A stretch of DNA of 57,512 bases from Candidatus Faecalibacterium gallistercoris (GTDB taxonomy: Bacteria; Bacillota; Clostridia; Oscillospirales; Ruminococcaceae): positions 1-57,512 of the forward strand of contig DXBJ01000024.1 of the NCBI GenBank assembly GCA_019116585.1, in the 5' to 3' direction. The translations under genes were made by a program, and so were the position numbers. Numbering within the stretch: position 1 is the stretch's first letter; each line of letters starts with the position of its first letter. The notes beneath the pieces were generated by a model. It did not search any database, had not been told where the DNA came from, and worked only from the letters and a program-made list of their open reading frames with translations. Below are positions 3,683 to 43,915 of this stretch, one piece after another.

Positions 3683-4576
3683 TTATTTCAGCAGGCCGCA
3701 GGCGCGCAGGGTCTGCTCGATCTTGGCTTTCTGGGCGTCGCCCGGCTCCACCAGGGGCAGCCGGCACTTGCCGGCGTCCCAGCCCAGCAGGTTCATGGCA
3801 TACTTGACCGGGATGGGGTTGACGTCGCAGAACATGGCGTCGCACAGGGGCAGCATCTCCAGCTGAAGGCGGCGGGCCTCGGCGGTGTCGCCGTCAAACC
3901 AGGCCTTGCAGCAGTTGTGCACCAGGGTGGGGGCGATGTTGGACACCACGCTGATGACCCCCTTGCCCCCCAGGGACAGCAGGGGCAGCACCTGGTCGTC
4001 GTTGCCCGAGTAGAGGTTCAGCGCGTCGCCGCAGAGTGCCGCGATCTGGGCCACCTGGGCGATGTTGCCCGAGGCTTCCTTGATGCCGTTGATCAGCGGG
4101 TGCTCGCTCAGCTTTTGGGCAGTCTCCGGCTTGATGTTGACGCCGGTGCGGGACGGCACATTGTAGAGGATGACCGGGATGCCGCCGGCTTCGGCCATGG
4201 CGGTAAAGTGGGCGATCAGGCCGGCCTGGCTGGTCTTGTTGTAGTAGGGGGTGACCATCAGCAGGGCGTCGGCGCCGCAGTTGGCCGCGCCGGCGGCCAG
4301 GGCGCAGCCGTGGGCCGTGTCGTTGGAGCCGGCCCCCGCCACCACCGGCACCCGGTGGGCCACCGTGTCCACCGCGAACTTGATGGCGGACAGCTGCTCG
4401 GCGTCGGTCATGGTGGAGCACTCGCCGGTGGTGCCGCAGATGATAATGGCGTCGGTGCCGCGGGCGATCTGGTCCTCAAGGATCTGCCCCAGCACATCGA
4501 AATGGATGCTTCCGTTGTCGTGCATCGGGGTGATGACGGCCACGCCTGCACCTGTGAACACAGGCTTTTTCATCAT
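3683..4576 (-). CDS. dapA: 4-hydroxy-tetrahydrodipicolinate synthase
   Basis: DapA (297 aa) condenses pyruvate with aspartate semialdehyde, the first committed step toward lysine and meso-DAP. It is a TIM-barrel aldolase. The Schiff-base lysine is K166 in GIKEASGN, and the catalytic tyrosine is Y138 in LYNVPSRTG. The CGTTGE pyruvate-loop motif is at residues 48-53. It starts at the first of two adjacent ATGs (4576) after AAAGGAGAG. It sits 54 nt after asd, which supplies its substrate. Feedback by lysine cannot be judged from this sequence. Confidence 0.97.
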   Translation of the reverse strand: MMKKPVFTGAGVAVITPMHDNGSIHFDVLGQILEDQIARGTDAIIICGTTGECSTMTDAEQLSAIKFAVDTVAHRVPVVAGAGSNDTAHGCALAAGAANCGADALLMVTPYYNKTSQAGLIAHFTAMAEAGGIPVILYNVPSRTGVNIKPETAQKLSEHPLINGIKEASGNIAQVAQIAALCGDALNLYSGNDDQVLPLLSLGGKGVISVVSNIAPTLVHNCCKAWFDGDTAEARRLQLEMLPLCDAMFCDVNPIPVKYAMNLLGWDAGKCRLPLVEPGDAQKAKIEQTLRACGLLK

Positions 4577-4630
4577 AACTAGGCTCTCCTTTACTGTGAT
4601 ATGGGGTGGGCGCTTCCCAGCGCAGAGGGA

Positions 4631-5716
4631 TCAGTCCAGATAGCCCTTGGCTGCCAGCAGCTCGGCCAGCAGGACGCCGCCGCCGGCCGCACCCCGCAAG
4701 GTGTTGTGGCTCATGCAGGCAAACTTGTAGTCAAAGAGGGTGTCCTCCCGCAGGCGGCCGATGCAGACGGCCATGCCGTGCTCGGTGTCGCGGTCCAGCT
4801 TGGGCTGGGGGCGGTCGTTCTCCTCAAAATAGTGGAGGAACTGCTTGGGCGCGCTGGGCAGCTCCAGCTCCTGGGCGGGGCCGCGGAACTCCTTCCACGC
4901 CGCGAGGATCTGCTCTTTGGTGGGCTTCTTTTCAAAGCTGACAAAGACGGCGGCGGTGTGGCCGTCCGATACGGGGACCCGGAAGCACTGGGCCGTGATG
5001 ACGGGCCCCTCGGCGTTGACGATCCGGTCGCCCTCGATGTGGCCCCACAGCTTGAGGGGCTCCTGCTCGCTCTTCTCCTCCTCGCCGCCGATGTAGGGGA
5101 TCACGTTGTCGACGATCTCGGGCATCCGGTCAAAGGTTTTGCCCGCGCCCGAAATGGCCTGATAGGTGCAGACCAGGGCCTTGGTGACCTTGAAATCCTT
5201 CATCAGGGGGTGGAAGGCGGGCACGTAGCTCTGCAGGCTGCAGTTGGACTTGACGGCGATGAAGCCCCGCCGGGTGCCCAGGCGCCGGCGCTGGGCCGGG
5301 ATGATCTCGATGTGGTCGGCGTTGATCTCGGGCACCACCATGGGCACGTCGGGGGTGCCGCGGTTGGCGCTGTTGTTGGAGACCACCGGGCACTCGGCCT
5401 TGGCATAGGCTTCTTCCAGGGCTTTGATCTCGCTTTTGGGCATGTTCACGGCGCAGAAGATAAAGTCTACCTGGGCGGCGATCTGCTCCACCTGGGCGGC
5501 GTCCTGCACCACCATATCCCGGACGCTTTCGGGCATGGGGGTGGGCATGGCCCAGCGGCTGCCCACCGCCTCCGCATAGGTCTTGCCCGCACTGCGGCTG
5601 GAGGCCGCCAGAACGGTCAGTTTGAACCAGGGGTGATGTTCCAGCAGGGTAACGAACCGCTGCCCGACCATGCCGGTGGCGCCGACGACGCCCACCTTGT
5701 AATACTGCTTTTTCAT
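4631..5716 (-). CDS. asd: Aspartate-semialdehyde dehydrogenase
   Basis: A 361-aa enzyme that reductively dephosphorylates aspartyl phosphate to the semialdehyde used by DapA and for threonine/methionine. The NADP-binding motif GVVGATGMVGQ is at residues 9-19, the catalytic Cys is C159 in KSNCSLQ, and the acid/base His is in VSDGHTAAV. Its length and the insert around IPYIGGEEEKSEQEP resemble the fungal/archaeal-type long form rather than the E. coli form. The ATG at 5716 lies 8 nt after AGGAAAGG; a GTG at 5725 in frame has no usable site. It is the first gene of the operon. No lysC is seen. Confidence 0.95.
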   Translation of the reverse strand: MKKQYYKVGVVGATGMVGQRFVTLLEHHPWFKLTVLAASSRSAGKTYAEAVGSRWAMPTPMPESVRDMVVQDAAQVEQIAAQVDFIFCAVNMPKSEIKALEEAYAKAECPVVSNNSANRGTPDVPMVVPEINADHIEIIPAQRRRLGTRRGFIAVKSNCSLQSYVPAFHPLMKDFKVTKALVCTYQAISGAGKTFDRMPEIVDNVIPYIGGEEEKSEQEPLKLWGHIEGDRIVNAEGPVITAQCFRVPVSDGHTAAVFVSFEKKPTKEQILAAWKEFRGPAQELELPSAPKQFLHYFEENDRPQPKLDRDTEHGMAVCIGRLREDTLFDYKFACMSHNTLRGAAGGGVLLAELLAAKGYLD

Positions 5717-36385: not shown

Positions 36386-36419
36386 AACAGGGCCGCTGCA
36401 AACGAGCAGCGGCCCTGTT
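36386..36419. terminator. Bidirectional terminator between the amidase gene and the 24-codon gene
   Basis: A perfect 14-bp stem, AACAGGGCCGCTGC (36386-36399) with GCAGCGGCCCTGTT (36406-36419), and a 6-nt loop. It ends the rightward amidase transcript and lies directly after the stop of the leftward short gene. Confidence 0.85.
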
Positions 36420-36496: not shown

Positions 36497-36624
36497 GGGA
36501 TTCGGTCCCTCCTTCCAGAAAATGCCTTTGAATCAAATACGGATGGGCCGGAGGCAGGATTGCAGCCGGTTCGAAATTTTCCGTCAGGTTTCGGTAAAAA
36601 GTGAAACGATTTGCATTGCAATGC

Positions 36625-36652
36625 TTGACAAGTGAAAAAAACATGGTACAAT
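36625..36652 (+). promoter_or_regulatory. Promoter of the polyamine leader RNA / operon
   Basis: TTGACA (36625-36630), 16 bp, TACAAT (36647-36652), in an AT-rich stretch. The predicted start is near 36659. No other good promoter is seen before speA. Confidence 0.8.
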
Positions 36653-36658
36653 AAACTC

Positions 36659-37030
36659 AAAGTGTGCACAAGCCATGTGCACGCAAATAGATTAGGCCGG
36701 GCGCCCCATGGCGCCTAAAGCTCATCGGACAGGGCTGGCCGCTGCCGCGTGTGGCGTAAAGCGTCACAACAATTATTGAACGGGTAAGGTTGCCCGGAAA
36801 TTTTATAAGTTGGTCTCTTTTGATTGCCCTGTGCGGATGCACACCACTTGTGAAACGTCAATAAGAGCAGCAGCAGCCCTCATGATCTATTTGCTGAAGT
36901 ACTCTTCCAAAGGCCAGGCATGGCAGGATGCCCAAGCCCCGCCCTGTGCGCAGCTTTGCAGGCGCAGGCGGCAGGCCGCCCAGAACGGTTTTTCACAGGC
37001 AGTGTGCCCGAAAGGGTGCGCTGCCTTTTT
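36659..37030 (+). ncRNA. Long structured leader RNA of the polyamine operon (candidate riboswitch/attenuator)
   Basis: About 370 nt of unassigned RNA. A 10-bp long-range helix pairs GCAAATAGAT (36683-36692) with ATCTATTTGC (36885-36894). Inside are a hairpin at 36692-36718 (TTAGGC/GCCTAA), TGTGGCG/CGTCACA (36750-36768, one G-U pair), CGGG/CCCG (36781-36795), CTCTT-TTGA with TCAA-T-AAGAG (36814-36866), and GTGC/GCAC (36831-36842). ACAGGGC (36729-36735) can pair with GCCCTGT (36826-36832), which would be a pseudoknot across the CTCTT helix. It ends in a 12-bp terminator stem (36998-37009 with 37014-37025, GAAA loop) and five T, 42 nt before the speA start. It could instead be a stand-alone RNA. 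Confidence 0.7.
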
Positions 37031-37072
37031 GCGTGCAGAAAAAAGAGGCCATGCAGGGAAAGAGGGATCTTA

Positions 37073-38521
37073 TTGAACAGGGAACGTCAAAAACGGGCGC
37101 CCATTTACGAGGCGCTGGAAAAGTTCCGCCGGCAGCGCGTGGTGCCGTTTGATGTGCCGGGCCACAAGCGCGGCCGCGGCAACCCCGAGCTGGTGGAGCT
37201 GCTGGGGGAGCGCTGCGTGGGCATCGACGTCAACTCCATGAAACCGCTGGACAATTTGTGCCACCCGGTTTCGGTCATCAAGGAGGCGGAAGAACTGGCT
37301 GCCGACGCTTTTGGGGCGGCTCACGCCTTTTTGATGGTGGGGGGCACCACCAGCAGCGTCCAGAGCATGGTGCTGACCGCCTGCAAGCCGGGGGATAAGA
37401 TCATCCTGCCCCGCAACGTCCACAAGAGCGCCATCAACGCCCTGGTGCTGTGCGGCGCGGTGCCGGTCTACATTGACCCCAAGGTGGACACCGATCTGGG
37501 CATCCCCCTGGGGATGGAGGCGGCCGACGTCCGCGCCGCCATCGAGGCCAACCCCGACGCCGTGGCCATCTTCATCAACAACCCCACCTACTACGGCATC
37601 TGCTCCGACCTGCGCAGCCTGGTGGAGCTGGCCCACGAGCACCACATGCTGGCCCTGGTGGACGAAGCCCATGGCACCCACCTGTACTTTGGGCCCGGCC
37701 TGCCCCTCAGCGGCATGGCGGCCGGGGCCGACATGGCAGCCGTCTCGATGCACAAATCGGGCGGCAGCCTGACCCAGAGCTCCCTGCTGCTGTGCGGGCC
37801 GGGGGTCAACGCGGGCTATGTGGGCAACATCATCAACCTGACCCAGACCACCAGCGCCTCCTACCTTTTGATGTCCAGCCTGGACATCAGCCGCCGGAAC
37901 CTGGCCATGCGGGGCCGGGAGAGCTTTGCCAAGGTGGTGGACATGGCCGAGTACGCCCGGCGGGAGATCAACGCCATCGGCGACTACTACGCCTTCGGCT
38001 CCGAGCTCATCAACGGGGGCAGCATCTTTGATTTCGACGTCACCAAGCTGGCGGTGAACACCCGCGGCATCGGCCTGACCGGCATCGAGGTCTACGACCT
38101 GCTGCGGGACGAATACGACATCCAGATCGAATTCGGCGACCTGTCCAACATCCTGGCTTATATCTCCATCGGGGACCGCATCCAGGACATCGAGCGGCTG
38201 GTGGGCGCGCTGGCGGACATCCGCCGCCTTTACGCCAAGCCCCGCAGCGACCTGTTCACCGCGGAATACATCACCCCGCAGGTCAAGGCCACCCCGCAGC
38301 AGGCGTTCTATTCTCCCAAGGAGAGCCTGCCCCTGCGCGAGACCGCCGGGCGGATCTGCACCGAGTTCGTGATGTGCTATCCGCCGGGGATCCCCATCCT
38401 GGCGCCGGGGGAGGTCATCACCCCCGAGATCATCGACTACATCGAATTTGCCAAGGCCAAGGGCTGCTCGATGCAGGGCCCGGCCAGCGAAGACATCTCG
38501 GAACTGAACGTACTGGTTTGA
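37073..38521 (+). CDS. speA: Arginine decarboxylase (PLP, Bacillus SpeA / Orn-Lys-Arg decarboxylase family)
   Basis: A 482-aa fold-type I PLP enzyme. The PLP lysine is in VSMHKSGGSLTQ, preceded by VDEAHGTHLYFG. The N-terminal VPFDVPGHKRGRGNPEL is typical of this group. Substrate choice is arginine by context: agmatine-using aguA and aguB are in the same operon. Translation probably starts at TTG 37073 behind AGAGGG; the frame is open upstream to 36920, but that part overlaps the terminator and looks non-coding. It is the first gene after the leader RNA. Confidence 0.9.
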   Translation: MNRERQKRAPIYEALEKFRRQRVVPFDVPGHKRGRGNPELVELLGERCVGIDVNSMKPLDNLCHPVSVIKEAEELAADAFGAAHAFLMVGGTTSSVQSMVLTACKPGDKIILPRNVHKSAINALVLCGAVPVYIDPKVDTDLGIPLGMEAADVRAAIEANPDAVAIFINNPTYYGICSDLRSLVELAHEHHMLALVDEAHGTHLYFGPGLPLSGMAAGADMAAVSMHKSGGSLTQSSLLLCGPGVNAGYVGNIINLTQTTSASYLLMSSLDISRRNLAMRGRESFAKVVDMAEYARREINAIGDYYAFGSELINGGSIFDFDVTKLAVNTRGIGLTGIEVYDLLRDEYDIQIEFGDLSNILAYISIGDRIQDIERLVGALADIRRLYAKPRSDLFTAEYITPQVKATPQQAFYSPKESLPLRETAGRICTEFVMCYPPGIPILAPGEVITPEIIDYIEFAKAKGCSMQGPASEDISELNVLV

Positions 38522-38539: not shown

Positions 38540-39403
38540 TTGCAGGAAATGGACTATTGGTTTGGCGAGCTTCACACCGCCAACGTTAAGACCTGTATCC
38601 GGGTGGAGCGGCAGCTCTACAGCGGGACCAGCGATTTCCAGCGGATCGACGTCTTTGATTCGCCGGAGTTCGGCCGGTTCCTGACCTCGGACGGCAGCGT
38701 CATCTTCTCGGAAAAAGACGAGTTCACCTACGACGAAATGATCGTCCATGTGCCCATGGCGGTCCACCCCGACGTCAAGCGGGTGCTGGTCATCGGCGGC
38801 GGGGATGGCGGCGTCGCCCGGGAGCTGTCCCATTACCAGGAGATCGAGGTCATCGACGTGGTGGAACCGGACAAGATGTTTGTGGACGTCTGCCGCAAAT
38901 ATTTCCCGGACAATGCCTGCGGCCTGGACGACATCCGGGTGCGGGTCTACTACGAGGACGGCCTGCGCTTTCTGCGCGGCAAAGAGGACGAATACGACCT
39001 CATCATCAACGACTGCACCGACCCGCTGGGCCATGCGGCCGGGCTGTTCACCAAGGAATTTTACGGCAGCTGCTACAAAGCCCTCCACGAGGACGGCATC
39101 ATGGTCTATCAGCACGGCAGCCCCTTCTTTGACGAGGACGAGGAGACCTGCCGCGCCATGCACAAAAAGGCGTACCGCTCGTTCCCCATCAGCCGGGTAT
39201 ACCAGGCGCACATCCCCACCTGCCCGGCGGGGTACTGGCTGTTCGGCTTTGCCAGCAAAAAATACCACCCCATCAAGGATTTTGACCCCAAGCGCTGGAA
39301 CAAGCGGGGGATCAAGACCTGGTATTACACCACCCATCTGCACCGCGGCGCCTTTATGCTGCCGCGCTATGTGGAGGACCTCCTCAAGGAAGAGGAGGAT
39401 TGA
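38540..39403 (+). CDS. speE: Polyamine aminopropyltransferase (spermidine synthase)
   Basis: A 287-aa enzyme that moves an aminopropyl group from decarboxylated AdoMet to putrescine or a related amine. The segments LVIGGGDGGVARELSHY, VVEPDKMFVDVCRKYFP, YEDGLRFL and IINDCTDPLG are the family binding motifs. Translation starts at TTG 38540 with AGGAGG 7 nt upstream. No AdoMet decarboxylase (speD) is in the window, so its donor must come from elsewhere. It lies 18 nt after speA. Confidence 0.93.
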   Translation: MQEMDYWFGELHTANVKTCIRVERQLYSGTSDFQRIDVFDSPEFGRFLTSDGSVIFSEKDEFTYDEMIVHVPMAVHPDVKRVLVIGGGDGGVARELSHYQEIEVIDVVEPDKMFVDVCRKYFPDNACGLDDIRVRVYYEDGLRFLRGKEDEYDLIINDCTDPLGHAAGLFTKEFYGSCYKALHEDGIMVYQHGSPFFDEDEETCRAMHKKAYRSFPISRVYQAHIPTCPAGYWLFGFASKKYHPIKDFDPKRWNKRGIKTWYYTTHLHRGAFMLPRYVEDLLKEEED

Positions 39404-39489
39404 CCCAAGCGGGCGGTGAAAACATCCGGCTGGATGCCGCCCTTTGTCTGAAAACGAACATTTGTCTGGAACCGAAAGGAGTATACATC

Positions 39490-40752
39490 ATGAGCAAACT
39501 GCTTGTCATTGGCTGCGGCGGCGTCGCCTCGGTCGCCATCCAGAAGTGCTGCCAGAATTTTGAGACCTTCCCCGAGCTGTGCATCGCCAGCCGCACCGTC
39601 GCCAAATGCGACGCCCTGAAGGCCAAGCTGGAAGCCGCCGGCACGCCGGTGAAGATCACTACCATGACCGTCAACGCCGACGATGTGGAGGACCTGAAGC
39701 GGGTCATCCAGGCTTACCAGCCCGACCTGGTCCTGAATGTGGCCCTGCCGTACCAGGATCTTGCCATCATGGACGCCTGCCTGGCCTGCGGCGTCCACTA
39801 CATCGACACCGCCAACTATGAGCCCGAGAACACCGACGACCCCGCCTGGCGCGCCGTCTACGAAAAGCGCTGCAAGGAGGAGGGCTTCACCGCCTACTTT
39901 GACTACAGCTGGCAGTGGGCCTACGCCAAGAAGTTTGAGGACGCCGGCCTGACCGCCATCCTGGGCTCCGGCTTCGATCCGGGCGTCACCAGCGTGTTCA
40001 CCGCCTACGCCCTGAAGCACTACTTTGACGAGATCCACACCATCGACATCCTGGACTGCAACGGCGGCGACCATGGTTACCCCTTCGCCACCAACTTCAA
40101 CCCCGAGATCAACCTGCGGGAGGTCTCGGCCAACGGCAGCTACTGGGAGGACGGCCACTGGGTGGAGACCAAGCCCATGGAGATCAAGCGGGAATACGAC
40201 TTCCCCCAGGTGGGCAAAAAGGATATGTACCTGCTCCACCACGAGGAGATCGAGAGCCTGGCCAAGCATGTGCCCGGCGTCAAACGGATCCGCTTCTTCA
40301 TGACCTTTGGCCAGAGCTACCTGACCCACATGAAGTGTCTGGAAAACGTGGGGATGCTGTCCACCAGCCCCGTCATGTTTGAGGGCCGGGAGATCGTCCC
40401 CATCCAGTTCCTCAAGGCGCTGCTGCCCGATCCCGCATCCCTGGGCCCCCGCACGGTGGGCAAGACCAACATCGGCTGCATCTACACCGGCGTCAAGGAC
40501 GGCAAAGAGCGGACCATCTACATCTACAACGTCTGCGACCACCAGGAGTGCTATAAGGAGCTGGGCAGCCAGGCCATCAGCTACACCACCGGCGTGCCCG
40601 CCATGATCGGCGCCGCTCTGGTGGCCAACGGCCAGTGGCGCAAGCCCGGCGTCTACAACCTGGAGGAGATGGATCCCGATCCCTTCATGGAGATGCTGAA
40701 CCAGTACGGCCTGCCCTGGGTGGTGGACGAGCACCCCGCTACCGTCGAGTGA
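39490..40752 (+). CDS. Carboxynorspermidine/carboxyspermidine dehydrogenase (saccharopine dehydrogenase family)
   Basis: A 420-aa NAD(P)-dependent enzyme. The Rossmann motif VIGCGGVASVAI is at residues 6-17, with further family segments LVLNVALPYQDLAIMDAC and ILGSGFDPGVTSVFTAYA. In the alternative polyamine route it condenses aspartate semialdehyde with putrescine or diaminopropane. The next gene encodes the matching decarboxylase, which supports this over a lysine-catabolic saccharopine role. AAAGGAG lies upstream of the ATG at 39490. An 86-nt gap to speE holds no promoter I can recognise. Confidence 0.9.
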   Translation: MSKLLVIGCGGVASVAIQKCCQNFETFPELCIASRTVAKCDALKAKLEAAGTPVKITTMTVNADDVEDLKRVIQAYQPDLVLNVALPYQDLAIMDACLACGVHYIDTANYEPENTDDPAWRAVYEKRCKEEGFTAYFDYSWQWAYAKKFEDAGLTAILGSGFDPGVTSVFTAYALKHYFDEIHTIDILDCNGGDHGYPFATNFNPEINLREVSANGSYWEDGHWVETKPMEIKREYDFPQVGKKDMYLLHHEEIESLAKHVPGVKRIRFFMTFGQSYLTHMKCLENVGMLSTSPVMFEGREIVPIQFLKALLPDPASLGPRTVGKTNIGCIYTGVKDGKERTIYIYNVCDHQECYKELGSQAISYTTGVPAMIGAALVANGQWRKPGVYNLEEMDPDPFMEMLNQYGLPWVVDEHPATVE

Positions 40753-40758
40753 GCCGGG

Positions 40759-41907
40759 ATGGAAGCACTGTACAGCACCGAGCCGGGGCTGCGCACCCCG
40801 GTCTATGTCGTGGATGAGGCGGCGCTGGTTCGCAATCTGGAGATCCTGCAGGGGGTCCAGCAGAGGACAGGCTGCCATATCCTGCTGGCCCAAAAAGCTT
40901 TTTCCATGTTCCGGGTCTACCCGCTGATCGGGCAATACCTGGCCGGGGCCACGGCCAGCGGCCTTTTTGAGGCCCGGCTGGCCCACGAAGAGATGCCCGG
41001 CAGGGAAAACCATGTTTTCAGCCCGGCCTACACCCCGGAGGAAATGCAGGAGCTGGTCCGGATCTGCGACCATATCAGCTTCAATTCGCTGGCCCAGCTG
41101 GAGGCCCACCGCCCGGTCTGGCAGGCCGCCGGCGTCAGCGTGGGGCTGCGGGTCAATCCCGAGCACTCCACCCAGGAGGGGCATGCCATCTATGACCCCT
41201 GCGCGCCGGGCAGCCGGCTGGGCATCCGCCGCTGCGGCCTGCCCGACGTTCTGCCCAGCGGGGTGGAGGGGCTCCACTTCCACACACTCTGCGAGCAGGA
41301 CGCCGCCCCGCTGGTGGAGACCTTTGCAGCCTTTGAGCAGGCTTTCGGCTCGTATCTGCCCGCCATCCAATGGCTGAATCTGGGCGGCGGCCATCACATC
41401 ACCCGCCCGGGATACGACCTCGAAGCACTGGAGCGCCTGATTTTGTACGTCCGGCAGACTTACGGCGTCGAGGTCTACCTGGAGCCGGGGGAGGCCATTG
41501 CCCTCAACGCCGGCACCCTCATTACAACGGTGCTGGACGTGGTGCAGGCCTCCGATATGCCGGTCCTGATCCTGGACACTTCGGCCGCCTGCCATATGCC
41601 CGACGTCCTGGAGATGCCTTACCGGCCTCCGCTGCACGGCGCGGGCCTGCCGGGCGAAAAAGCCTGCACCTGCCGCCTGGCCTCCCGCACCTGCCTGGCG
41701 GGGGACGTCATTGGCGAATACAGCTTTGACGCCTGCCCGCAGGTGGGGGACCGCCTTGTCTTTGGCGATATGGCGATCTATTCCATGGTCAAAAACAACA
41801 CCTTCAACGGGATGCCGCTGCCGGACATCGCTCTGCGTCATGCCGGCGGCAGCTGCGAAGTGGTCCGCCGGTTCGGCTATCAGGACTTCAAGACGCGGCT
41901 TTCCTGA
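40759..41907 (+). CDS. nspC: Carboxynorspermidine decarboxylase
   Basis: A 382-aa fold-type III PLP decarboxylase (alanine-racemase-like barrel). It begins with TPVYVVDEAALVRNLEIL; the PLP lysine is in HILLAQKAFSMF. The glycine-rich LNLGGGHHITRPGYD and C-terminal region GDVIGEYSF match NspC. It decarboxylates carboxyspermidine or carboxynorspermidine from the previous gene. Only 6 nt separate the two genes. Confidence 0.93.
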   Translation: MEALYSTEPGLRTPVYVVDEAALVRNLEILQGVQQRTGCHILLAQKAFSMFRVYPLIGQYLAGATASGLFEARLAHEEMPGRENHVFSPAYTPEEMQELVRICDHISFNSLAQLEAHRPVWQAAGVSVGLRVNPEHSTQEGHAIYDPCAPGSRLGIRRCGLPDVLPSGVEGLHFHTLCEQDAAPLVETFAAFEQAFGSYLPAIQWLNLGGGHHITRPGYDLEALERLILYVRQTYGVEVYLEPGEAIALNAGTLITTVLDVVQASDMPVLILDTSAACHMPDVLEMPYRPPLHGAGLPGEKACTCRLASRTCLAGDVIGEYSFDACPQVGDRLVFGDMAIYSMVKNNTFNGMPLPDIALRHAGGSCEVVRRFGYQDFKTRLS

Positions 41908-41929
41908 AAGGATACGAAAGGGTTTGCCT

Positions 41930-43012
41930 ATGTACAAAATGCCCGCTGAATACCAGCCGCACCGCGCTACCCTGATGATCTGGCCCGTCCGTCCCGGCAG
42001 CTGGGGCAAAGACCCCCGCCCGGCACAGGCCGCCTTTGTGCGGGTGTTCGAGGCCATCACGCAGGGAGAGGACCTCTACCTGCTGGCCGGCCCCGGTCAC
42101 CTGGAGGAAGCCCGCGCCGCCACGGCCCATCTGGACCCGGCGCGGGTGCACCTGCTCTGCATCGACTCGGACGACGCATGGGCCCGTGATGTGGGGCCCA
42201 CCTTCGTCCAGGATGAGGCGGGCCGGCTGAAAGGGATCAGCTGGCGGTTCAACGCCTGGGGCGGGGAAGTGGACGGCCTCTACGCCGACTGGCAAAAGGA
42301 CGACGCCGTGGCTTCGGCCTTTTGCGACGCTGCGGGATACCCCTGGGAGGACGCCGCACCCTTTGTTTTGGAGGGGGGCAGCATCCACACCGACGGGGAA
42401 GGGACGGCGCTGGTCACCGAGAGCTGCCTGCTCTCGGCCGGGCGCAATCCGTCCCTGTCCCGGCAGGAGATCGAGGCAGAGCTCTGCCGCCGTCTGGGCG
42501 TCTGCAAAGTGCTGTGGCTGCCGCGCGGCATCTACAACGACGAGACCAACGAACACGTGGACAACGTCTGTGCCTTTGTGGGGCCCGCCGAAGTGGTGCT
42601 GGCCTGGACCGACGACCCGTCTGACCCGCAGTACCCGCTTTCGGCGGCGGACCTTGCCTACCTGCAAAGCGTCACCGACGCCCAGGGCCGGCGGCTGAAG
42701 ATCCACAAGCTGCCCATCCCGGACCATCCCATCCTGTGCAGCGAGGCCGATTGCGACGCCTACGAGTTTGCCCCGGGCGAAGACACCCGGGAGCCGGGGG
42801 AGCGGCTGGCTGCCAGCTACGTCAATTTCTATTTTGTCAACGGCGCCGTCCTGGTGCCTCAGTTTGGCGGCGAGAATGCTGCCAGCGACGCCCGCGCCTG
42901 CGCCATCCTGCAGGCGCTGTGCCCGGACCGCCGTGTGATCGGCCTGCCTGCGCGGGATATTTTGCAGGGCGGGGGAAACATCCACTGCATCACACAGCAG
43001 ATCCCGCTGTAA
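41930..43012 (+). CDS. aguA: Agmatine deiminase
   Basis: A 360-aa guanidino-modifying hydrolase that turns agmatine into N-carbamoylputrescine and ammonia. The family segments MPAEYQPHRATLMIWPVRPG, DDAWARDVGPTFV, WGGEVDG, LEGGSIHTDGEGT and the catalytic Cys in QGGGNIHCITQQIP are present. The ATG at 41930 follows AAAGGG; the frame is open upstream, but the homology starts here. It works between SpeA and AguB. Confidence 0.96.
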   Translation: MYKMPAEYQPHRATLMIWPVRPGSWGKDPRPAQAAFVRVFEAITQGEDLYLLAGPGHLEEARAATAHLDPARVHLLCIDSDDAWARDVGPTFVQDEAGRLKGISWRFNAWGGEVDGLYADWQKDDAVASAFCDAAGYPWEDAAPFVLEGGSIHTDGEGTALVTESCLLSAGRNPSLSRQEIEAELCRRLGVCKVLWLPRGIYNDETNEHVDNVCAFVGPAEVVLAWTDDPSDPQYPLSAADLAYLQSVTDAQGRRLKIHKLPIPDHPILCSEADCDAYEFAPGEDTREPGERLAASYVNFYFVNGAVLVPQFGGENAASDARACAILQALCPDRRVIGLPARDILQGGGNIHCITQQIPL

Positions 43013-43030: not shown

Positions 43031-43915
43031 ATGCCTCAAACGACCGTTGCGGCCATCCAGATGACCTGTGTGGCCGACCCGGCCCAGAACCTGGCCCACG
43101 CCGAAGAGCTGGTCCGGCAGGCTGCGGCCAAGGGCGCGCAGATCGTCCTGCTGCCCGAGCTGTTCGAACGCCCGTATTTCTGCCAGGAACGCCGGTACGA
43201 ATACTACGATTACGCGCTGCCGCTGGAAGAAAATCCCGCAGTGCGCCGCTTTGCCGAGGTCTGCCGCGAGCTGGAGCTGGTCATGCCGGTCAGCTTTTAT
43301 GAAAAAGACGGCACTCGTCTGTTCAACAGCGCTGCCATGCTGGACGCTGACGGCAGCATCCTGGGTGTCTACCGCAAGACCCATATCCCGGACGACCATT
43401 ATTATCAGGAAAAGTTCTATTTCACCCCCGGCAACACCGGTTTCAAAGTGTTTGATACCCAGTACGGCCGGGTCGGGGTGGGCATCTGCTGGGACCAGTG
43501 GTTCCCGGAGACGGCCCGCTGCCTGGCGCTGGCCGGGGCGGATCTGATCTTGTATCCAACTGCCATCGGCAGCGAGCCCATCCTGGATGTGGACAGCGCC
43601 GGCCACTGGCAGCGGACCATGCAGGGCCATGCGGCCGCCAATGTGCTCCCTGTAGTTGCGGCTAACCGCTACGGCACCGAAGTGGTCACGCCGTGCAGGG
43701 AAAACGGGGGCCAGCAGAGCGCGCTGCGGTTTTACGGCACCAGCTTTTTGACCGACGAGACCGGGGCAGTCCTGGTCCAGGCCGGCCGGGATGAGGACGC
43801 CGTCCTGACTGCAAGCTATGACTTTGCAGCCATCCGCCAGGCTCGTATGGAATGGGGCTTGTTCCGCGACCGTCGGCCCAAGTGCTATGGCGCGATCTGC
43901 GACTTGAACGGATAA
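43031..43915 (+). CDS. aguB: N-carbamoylputrescine amidase
   Basis: A 294-aa nitrilase-superfamily enzyme that cleaves N-carbamoylputrescine to putrescine. The catalytic triad is E in LLPELFERPYFCQ, K in YRKTHIPDDHYYQEKFYF and C in GVGICWDQWFPE. The length and the YQEKFYFTPGNTGF stretch are typical of AguB. It is the last gene of the operon, 18 nt after aguA, and is followed by a terminator. Confidence 0.96.
   Translation: MPQTTVAAIQMTCVADPAQNLAHAEELVRQAAAKGAQIVLLPELFERPYFCQERRYEYYDYALPLEENPAVRRFAEVCRELELVMPVSFYEKDGTRLFNSAAMLDADGSILGVYRKTHIPDDHYYQEKFYFTPGNTGFKVFDTQYGRVGVGICWDQWFPETARCLALAGADLILYPTAIGSEPILDVDSAGHWQRTMQGHAAANVLPVVAANRYGTEVVTPCRENGGQQSALRFYGTSFLTDETGAVLVQAGRDEDAVLTASYDFAAIRQARMEWGLFRDRRPKCYGAICDLNG

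Follow-up and report, generated by a model that had tools for sequence, protein, structure and literature searches.

The RNA leader of the speA operon in the 57,512-nucleotide stretch of DNA analysed here (the window) is very probably a cis-acting attenuator of polyamine genes, and the reading preferred for it (probability about 0.7) is that of a polyamine-binding riboswitch, most likely one that would answer to spermidine or a close triamine by switching transcription off and that would be unlike the spermidine riboswitch derived from SAM-I. A covarying structure was found in the same-strand 5' leader of genes for polyamine synthesis and uptake, and the riboswitch or attenuator architecture proposed in the initial annotation was supported by the polyamine context, the covariation, the position of promoters before the RNA, the terminators and an antiterminator complementarity. 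We infer that the polyamine is bound directly by the RNA, and we likewise infer its identity and the direction of the response. At little better than even odds, the RNA would belong to another class of polyamine riboswitch, a second one with an original structure and a wider distribution: a single-copy aptamer of about 210 nt with an optional 5' domain, which would shut off the SpeD, SpeA, CASDH-NspC or PotABCD route of spermidine supply by transcription termination; the window would carry a rearranged subtype in which P2 and P3 have changed together. If this is true, Rfam holds only the optional 5' domain of that class, and its 'streptococcal small RNA' entry becomes one part of a regulatory RNA of greater size. 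The gene set of the class is that of polyamine synthesis and uptake, in the gut commensals Faecalibacterium and Blautia and also in Bacillus and Paenibacillus, and the leader provides a defined construct for testing.

All features described below lie on the plus strand of the window unless stated otherwise. A promoter of the sigma-70 type (TTGACA-N16-TACAAT, the -10 element being preceded by TG; 11 of 12 consensus matches) occupies positions 36625-36652 and was the sole promoter-like site between 36300 and 37200, where shuffled sequences average 0.3. It is followed by about 370 nt without a credible gene, by an intrinsic terminator (36997-37030, a 13-bp stem at 36997-37026 and then a T run) and, after 42 nt in which the same scan gave no promoter-like site, by the TTG start codon of speA at 37073. 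The folding energy of 36659-37030 was calculated as -159 kcal/mol (z -4.18), a value equalled by 0 of 100 shuffles. A strong promoter, a highly structured leader, a terminator shortly ahead of speA and a gap without a visible promoter had all been reported in the initial annotation, and each was found again. A 5' hairpin (GUGCAC...GUGCAC, 36664-36682) stands ahead of the main domain; it was taken from the fold, and in relatives it was recognised by eye only. On the minus strand, a 14-bp terminator-like hairpin (36386-36419) lies directly behind an amidase gene and before the promoter of the RNA.

The first gene of the operon (37073-38521) encodes a SpeA-like Orn/Lys/Arg decarboxylase, which the corresponding NCBIfam models match far under their curated cut-offs. 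It is followed by speE (polyamine aminopropyltransferase, 38540-39403), by a gene for a carboxy(nor)spermidine synthase-like dehydrogenase (CASDH, 39484-40752), by nspC (carboxynorspermidine decarboxylase, 40759-41907), by aguA (agmatine deiminase, 41924-43012) and by aguB (N-carbamoylputrescine amidase, 43031-43915). The curated NCBIfam cut-offs were reached by speE, nspC, aguA and aguB; the sole NCBIfam match of CASDH was carboxynorspermidine synthase, with 412 bits against a curated cut-off of 800. The SpeA-like proteins behind related leaders are 60-94% identical to that of the window, some of them over short stretches only. The window SpeA is 93% identical over 481 residues to the SpeA of a Gemmiger MAG (among loci L093, L095 and L089), and SpeA fragments were matched in a MAG labelled Lachnospiraceae (33 residues, 94%) and in Mediterraneibacter (90 residues, 88%). 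The last two matches hint at a movement of the operon between families and are too short to serve as proof.

The conserved RNA domain (36683-36894), a divergent ldcC-type RNA, was delimited by pair counts in relatives and by the covariance model R2, which was built from 27 relatives with the window and its subtype left out, though these relatives had been found through the window. Over the 57.5-kb window R2 gave a single match up to E 10, at 36683-36894 (60 bits, E 1.2e-14, covariance-model E-values being rough because of a short calibration), and six other members of the subtype scored 70 to 120 bits. A second model, R1 (32 sequences, window included), gave the window 97 bits, a score that it has by construction. 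The ends of the R2 match are those of the closing helix P1 (36683-36692 with 36885-36894), which is also present in the fold; the outer ends of the long-range helix of the initial annotation were recovered exactly by a model built without the window.

Inside P1 lie a 5' domain that is equivalent to Rfam RF02440 by homology (36695-36740), the P4 hairpin UGUGGCG...CGUCACA (36750-36768; fold, and pair changes on both sides in relatives) and a core domain, P5-P9 (36773-36864; fold, R2 match and many invariant columns among 32 aligned sequences). The 5' domain comprises P2 (GGCC 36695-36698 with GGCC 36737-36740), the hairpin P2a (36700-36715, from the minimum-energy fold) and P3 (AGCUC 36719-36723 with GGGCU 36732-36736, around AUCGGACA), P2 and P3 being assigned by homology with the subtype members L003, L005, L093, L095, L150 and L246. 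The core comprises P5 (UUAUUGA 36773-36779 with UCAAUAA 36858-36864), the P6 hairpin (36781-36796), P7 (AAGUUGGU 36807-36814 with ACCACUU 36843-36849) and the P9 hairpin (36831-36842); P8 of the relatives is lost in the window, where non-standard pairs stand in the R2 alignment. The inner helices of the initial annotation stood in the case of P2a, P4, P5, P6, P7 and P9, which are present together with P1 in the minimum-energy fold of the window, whereas P2 and P3 are absent from that fold, their strands being paired otherwise, and are placed by homology. The pseudoknot that had been suggested (36729-36735 with 36826-36832) was rejected: the 7-nt match exists and is equalled in 3% of shuffled loops, and it occurs at full length in 0 of the 6 other subtype members, the best of which has 5 nt (L150). 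A second candidate pseudoknot would join AGAGU after P5 to ACUCU after P1, across the 3' strand of P1 (36863-36908 in the window). Both strands are conserved, AGAGU being nearly invariant and ACUCU being found in 119 of 132 loci, and pairing is possible in 120 of the 129 loci with an AGAGU core; among 11 variants a clean double change was found in L081 only, and the mean over these variants (11.0, against 10.8 with swapped partners) gives no clear excess.

When 148 genomes of the family were searched at the DNA level, matches came from 30, the window's own genome included, and the RNA core was present in 24 of the 30 loci. Six short DNA matches without the core pattern (L019, L025, L027, L028, L030 and L031) were dropped; L002 and L151 are repeats of the window. 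A degenerate core pattern led to at least 119 loci in named genomes, which among the matches listed belong to Gemmiger, Faecalibacterium, Blautia, Flavonifractor, Acetobacterium, Acidaminococcus, Phascolarctobacterium, Bacillus, Neobacillus, Paenibacillus, Heyndrickxia, Kurthia and others. RNA-bearing genomes numbered at least 54 of 197 in the family, at least 36 of 245 in the class (E 1e-6) and at least 24 of 398 in the phylum, the own genome being included each time; these are lower bounds, since the large genome searches were run with strict filters and few candidates. R1 gave one match per genome in 31 of the 31 genomes reached through loci.

The class structure was drawn by reading the sequences and consists of P1, the 5' domain (P2, P2a and P3), P4, P5-P9 and invariant single strands between them, with UUAUUGA/UCAAUAA as P5 and AAGUUG/CAACUU as P7. 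The initial annotation had proposed a covariation test on homologous leaders; once such leaders had been collected and aligned, covarying structure was found in both alignments. In a plain MAFFT alignment of 32 sequences (A1), changes on both sides are seen in 21 of 50 pairs, and the share of paired cells is 85.9%, against 82.3% after shuffling and 29-46% after sliding; for further pair types, one of five measures, 92 of 500 shuffles reach the value. In a model-fitted alignment of 98 sequences (A2), the counts of which lean towards the model structure, changes on both sides are seen in 35 of 49 pairs, the share of paired cells is 90.2% (81.5% shuffled, 28-44% slid) and no shuffle reaches any of the five measures. 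Orthologous leaders are, moreover, not independent of one another. P5 and P7 are nearly invariant, and their support comes from conservation more than from covariation. The 5' domain is optional: L047, L048, L067, L071, L089, L110 and L111 match R1 over only 140-154 nt. The subtype of the window has seven members, namely the window (L001) and the six loci named above for P2 and P3; it carries AGCUC-AUCGGACA-GGGCU where others have GGC-CAUACGGACA-GCC, L005 with two loop changes, and speA follows in 7 of 7 cases.

Among the matches listed, with the window counted once, the first same-strand matched gene downstream of the core-pattern loci was a polyamine gene in 135 of 142 cases ('first matched' refers to BLAST with polyamine and neighbour proteins, and open reading frames may intervene at some loci); it was speA in 49, speD in 48, CASDH in 22 and a potA-like gene in 16. 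The remaining 7 loci end within 178 nt, and a polyamine gene is present in 135 of the 135 pattern-found loci listed that have enough sequence, at distances of 136-508 nt (median 211). Model-found loci, which overlap with the pattern-found ones in part, had polyamine genes at 66 of 67 distinct testable places: 27 of 27 in one set (23 phylum matches outside the own genome plus 4 from the family), 12 of 13 that could be tested in another (11 of 12 new ones, as L256 and L203 coincide; at L254 the sequence stops with the RNA) and 28 of 28 in a third (L265, L268 and L286 being recognised via potB, as a contig end had shifted the coordinates). The exception is L252, a weak match (38 bits with R2) without a polyamine gene downstream. 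Its sequence (436-594) has no UCAAUAA strand, the next open reading frame is lipoprotein-like, and the locus looks like a degenerate copy, a decaying leader.

SpeD of L004 and the query PotA (L051, spermidine/putrescine transport) reach curated NCBIfam cut-offs, and PotD of L119 has PotD as its best match, below the cut-off. In L113 a P-II-like open reading frame (71 bits, below the curated cut-off) precedes a gene for an ABC ATPase that is 54% identical to the query PotA; the other 15 potA-like proteins, query included, share 77-100% identity with the query in alignments of 88 to 375 residues. The P-II-like frame of L113 (1557-1952, minus strand) lies between the RNA and the ABC ATPase gene, and a link to nitrogen control is possible. 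In the 16 genomes with a pot-linked RNA, the best SpeA homologue is 25-35% identical in 12 and absent at E 1e-10 in 4, in contrast to the 60-94% of RNA-linked SpeA proteins relative to that of the window, which suggests that the RNA tends to stand at a route of polyamine supply used by the cell. Not every such route carries it: in the genome of the window (93% complete), nothing was found with one SpeD query, and no copy of the RNA stands ahead of the potABCD-like operon on another contig.

The arrangement seen in the window recurs in the related leaders. Among the matches listed, a promoter-like site was found upstream of the RNA in 105 of 127 leaders (24% in shuffles); of the terminator-to-gene gaps at least 30 nt long, 4 of 104 contain one, which is the chance level (4.4% in shuffles). 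Terminators were detected by either of two scans in 125 of the 135 leaders listed, window included (1.2% of shuffled regions), 97 of them being strong hairpin-plus-T terminators of the first scan (0.4% of shuffled regions); by first gene they are present in 46 of 49 leaders of speA, 42 of 48 of speD, 21 of 22 of CASDH and 16 of 16 of potA, and 10 of the 135 leaders have none. Because of these promoter positions and terminators, transcription of the operons most probably starts before the RNA and must pass the terminator, as had been assumed for the speA operon in the initial annotation.

In the window, a helix of 9 pairs is possible between CUUGUGAAA (36847-36855), which overlaps the 3' strand of P7, and UUUCACAGG (36991-36999), which reaches 3 nt into the 5' arm of the terminator; these are the proposed 5' and 3' strands of an antiterminator. 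The corresponding complementarity was scored in 122 of the leaders among the matches listed (the 125 with a terminator minus 3 without upstream sequence). The best helix between the terminator 5' arm and the RNA as a whole falls on the conserved CUUGUGAA strand in 51 of these (speA 20 of 44, speD 17 of 42, potA 5 of 16, CASDH 9 of 20), against 5.7% for shuffled arms, and the local score at this strand is above the shuffled mean in 119; in 71 of the 122, another stretch of the RNA outpairs CUUGUGAA with the terminator arm. The partner of CUUGUG was scorable in 84 of the 90 strong first-scan terminators taken from the matches listed. With A in place of the G of CUUGUG, U stands opposite in 7 of 13 cases; with G itself, the opposite position holds C in 47 of 71 cases and U in 7 (Fisher p 8e-4 for U opposite A versus G, matches listed, kinship not corrected). 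The complementarity and the covarying base favour a terminator/antiterminator switch on P7 and fall short of proof. The window antiterminator overlaps the terminator by 3 nt only; in the finished transcript the terminator fold is favoured over the antiterminator by 15 kcal/mol, and before the 3' arm of the terminator has been made the antiterminator is 3 kcal/mol worse.

According to the mechanism proposed, RNA 36683-36894 would control whether RNA polymerase reads through the terminator at 36997-37030 and on into the polyamine operon. When polyamine is plentiful, the domain would fold and P7 would be closed, the terminator would form and the operon would be off; when polyamine is scarce, CUUGUGAAA would be available for antiterminator pairing with UUUCACAGG, at the base of the terminator, and the operon would be on. 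From the pathways, spermidine-type polyamines are suggested as the products common to the operons led by SpeD, SpeA, CASDH-NspC and PotABCD, and end-product repression would be expected for synthesis and import alike.

The same context and the same layout would fit an attenuator that is set by a polyamine-responsive RNA-binding protein, the RNA having no polyamine binding of its own, and protein-bound leaders can be well conserved too. This alternative is considered unlikely: a conserved domain of about 200 nt in which long internal stretches are invariant exceeds what most protein sites need, a general argument that weighs lightly. A shade less probable again is the sensing of a different pathway metabolite (agmatine, putrescine, decarboxylated SAM, methylthioadenosine or arginine). 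The agmatine and putrescine steps are encoded in the window operon, and decarboxylated SAM is made by the speD-led operons; among the matches listed, however, spermidine-type polyamines alone would, by their pathways, be common to the four contexts. Putrescine would be possible for the speA and pot copies and is a poorer fit to the CASDH-led operons. Arginine and agmatine, which the initial annotation had put forward as ligands, are unlikely because copies of the RNA also precede pot uptake operons and CASDH-nspC.

A stand-alone small RNA with its own terminator, merely located ahead of polyamine genes, is improbable. RF02440 (SpF59_sRNA, ldcC RNA) presumably takes its origin from pneumococcal F59, to judge by its Rfam name. 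It is typed 'Gene; sRNA' in Rfam and not as a switch, and F59 appears among the small RNAs of a review table, with 'Lung' beside it, in the available part of that source (PMC4387999); the product of a terminated attenuator would, moreover, resemble a small RNA. Against this stand, among the matches listed, the near-exclusive polyamine context with four different first genes and the lack of promoters beyond chance between terminator and gene. The initial annotation had kept a 6S- or raiA-type RNA in view; no match to such a family was obtained on the leader, and no well-preserved homologue was found away from the one set of polyamine genes, the degenerate L252 excepted. Least probable is a translated leader peptide by which the ribosome sets the attenuator, as in speF; it was rejected, as no supporting evidence was found and, among the matches listed, a short open reading frame with a good Shine-Dalgarno site occurs in only 10 of 129 leaders, the conserved stretch of 141 loci is open in frame 0 in 58, in frame 1 in 0 and in frame 2 in 27, and landmark intervals vary modulo 3 (56, 50, 35).

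At curated cut-offs, Rfam gave two tRNAs in the whole window and nothing on the leader; at E 10, four matches on 36560-37100 were obtained (E 3.9 to 9.6), all far below the cut-offs. No match to T-box, lysine, SAM or guanidine families was present on the leader, the signatures of which had been reported as lacking, and membership of these, of the SAM-type spermidine riboswitch and of the 6S and raiA families was rejected. RF02440 itself had no match in the window at the gathering threshold (curated, 37.2 bits), nor on 36560-37100 even at E 10, nor in the window's own genome. Its model is 54 positions long and extends over the optional 5' domain alone, the window domain being 36683-36894. The cut-off was reached by 17 of 20 relatives scanned (L003, L005 and L010 being missed), in which the RF02440 matches align with the 5' domain of the window. 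R2, which includes the RF02440-positive loci L004, L006, L013, L015, L016, L023 and L143, matches the window and thereby links the leader to the family by homology. Of 15 further loci, picked as divergent or as lacking the 5' domain, 14 were without an RF02440 match, namely the seven loci with short R1 matches given above and seven others; the control L143 matched. The motif GGCCAUACGGACAGCCGGGUC...UGCCGA was not found in the window, which keeps CGGACAG and UGCCG and has AGCUC/GGGCU in place of GGC/GCC, and GGCC/GGCC in place of UGACC/GGUCA. Lactococcus lactis was the only one of 14 control genomes with an RF02440 match, and of 299 genomes searched in the phylum 11 gave a match at E 0.01, 10 of them over the cut-off; L215, with an RF02440 match below the cut-off, was unmatched by R1, gave 13.7 bits (E 0.038) with R2 and was not accepted. 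Among the matches listed, the pattern-found loci that have enough sequence are followed by SpeA-like decarboxylases, directly or after speD, or by pot genes. Sequence comparison places the RNA, as a divergent member, in a class of Bacillota RNAs overlapping RF02440, and the leader is a divergent relative within this larger class, not filed as a member of RF02440. The statement of the initial annotation that no known class is recognisable holds insofar as no Rfam family matches the leader; as a divergent relative of RF02440, the RNA is not wholly unknown.

Attenuation of a polyamine gene is likewise found with speF of the gammaproteobacteria, which is controlled by a leader peptide; the present leaders are without a conserved leader reading frame. 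The published spermidine riboswitch is a variant of SAM-I (Salvail et al. 2023, PMC10853860). According to the available part of that paper, it stands likewise ahead of polyamine genes (ldcC, speE and speB) and acts as an off switch through transcription termination, as is proposed for the present RNA; it has the four-stem architecture of SAM-I, in contrast to the present leader, on which no SAM-family match was found and on whose region (36560-37100) no SAM-clan match was obtained at E 10, so that a SAM-I aptamer fold was not detected. Unlike the SAM-I-derived switch as described in the same part of that source, the present class is also found, among the matches listed, ahead of speD, CASDH and pot genes. 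Further classes of polyamine riboswitch seem certain to await discovery, according to the same text (PMC10853860). The ABC-leader before potABCD of two Pasteurellaceae is also a terminator-bearing leader of a polyamine uptake operon, as far as the available part of the source describes it (PMC2965389); it is gammaproteobacterial and is likened here by description, not by sequence. In the available parts of PMC10853860, PMC2965389, PMC8040213, PMC4448216, PMC4387999, PMC8546594 and PMC6064168, a selection that takes in few subscription papers, neither RF02440 nor the present RNA was found described as a polyamine switch. An earlier description as an orphan candidate RNA is possible, for example as an ldcC motif in a 2017 survey of candidate RNAs.

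Two further observations concern individual loci. In L150, the strand opposite to the polyamine leader carries an FMN riboswitch (5447-5583) and a SAM riboswitch (4487-4588), both of them upstream of the leader by at most 2 kb. Within one genus the RNA was encountered in three settings, namely a canonical form before potA (L245, genome G081), a canonical form before speA (L199, genome G567) and, in the window, the divergent subtype before speA.
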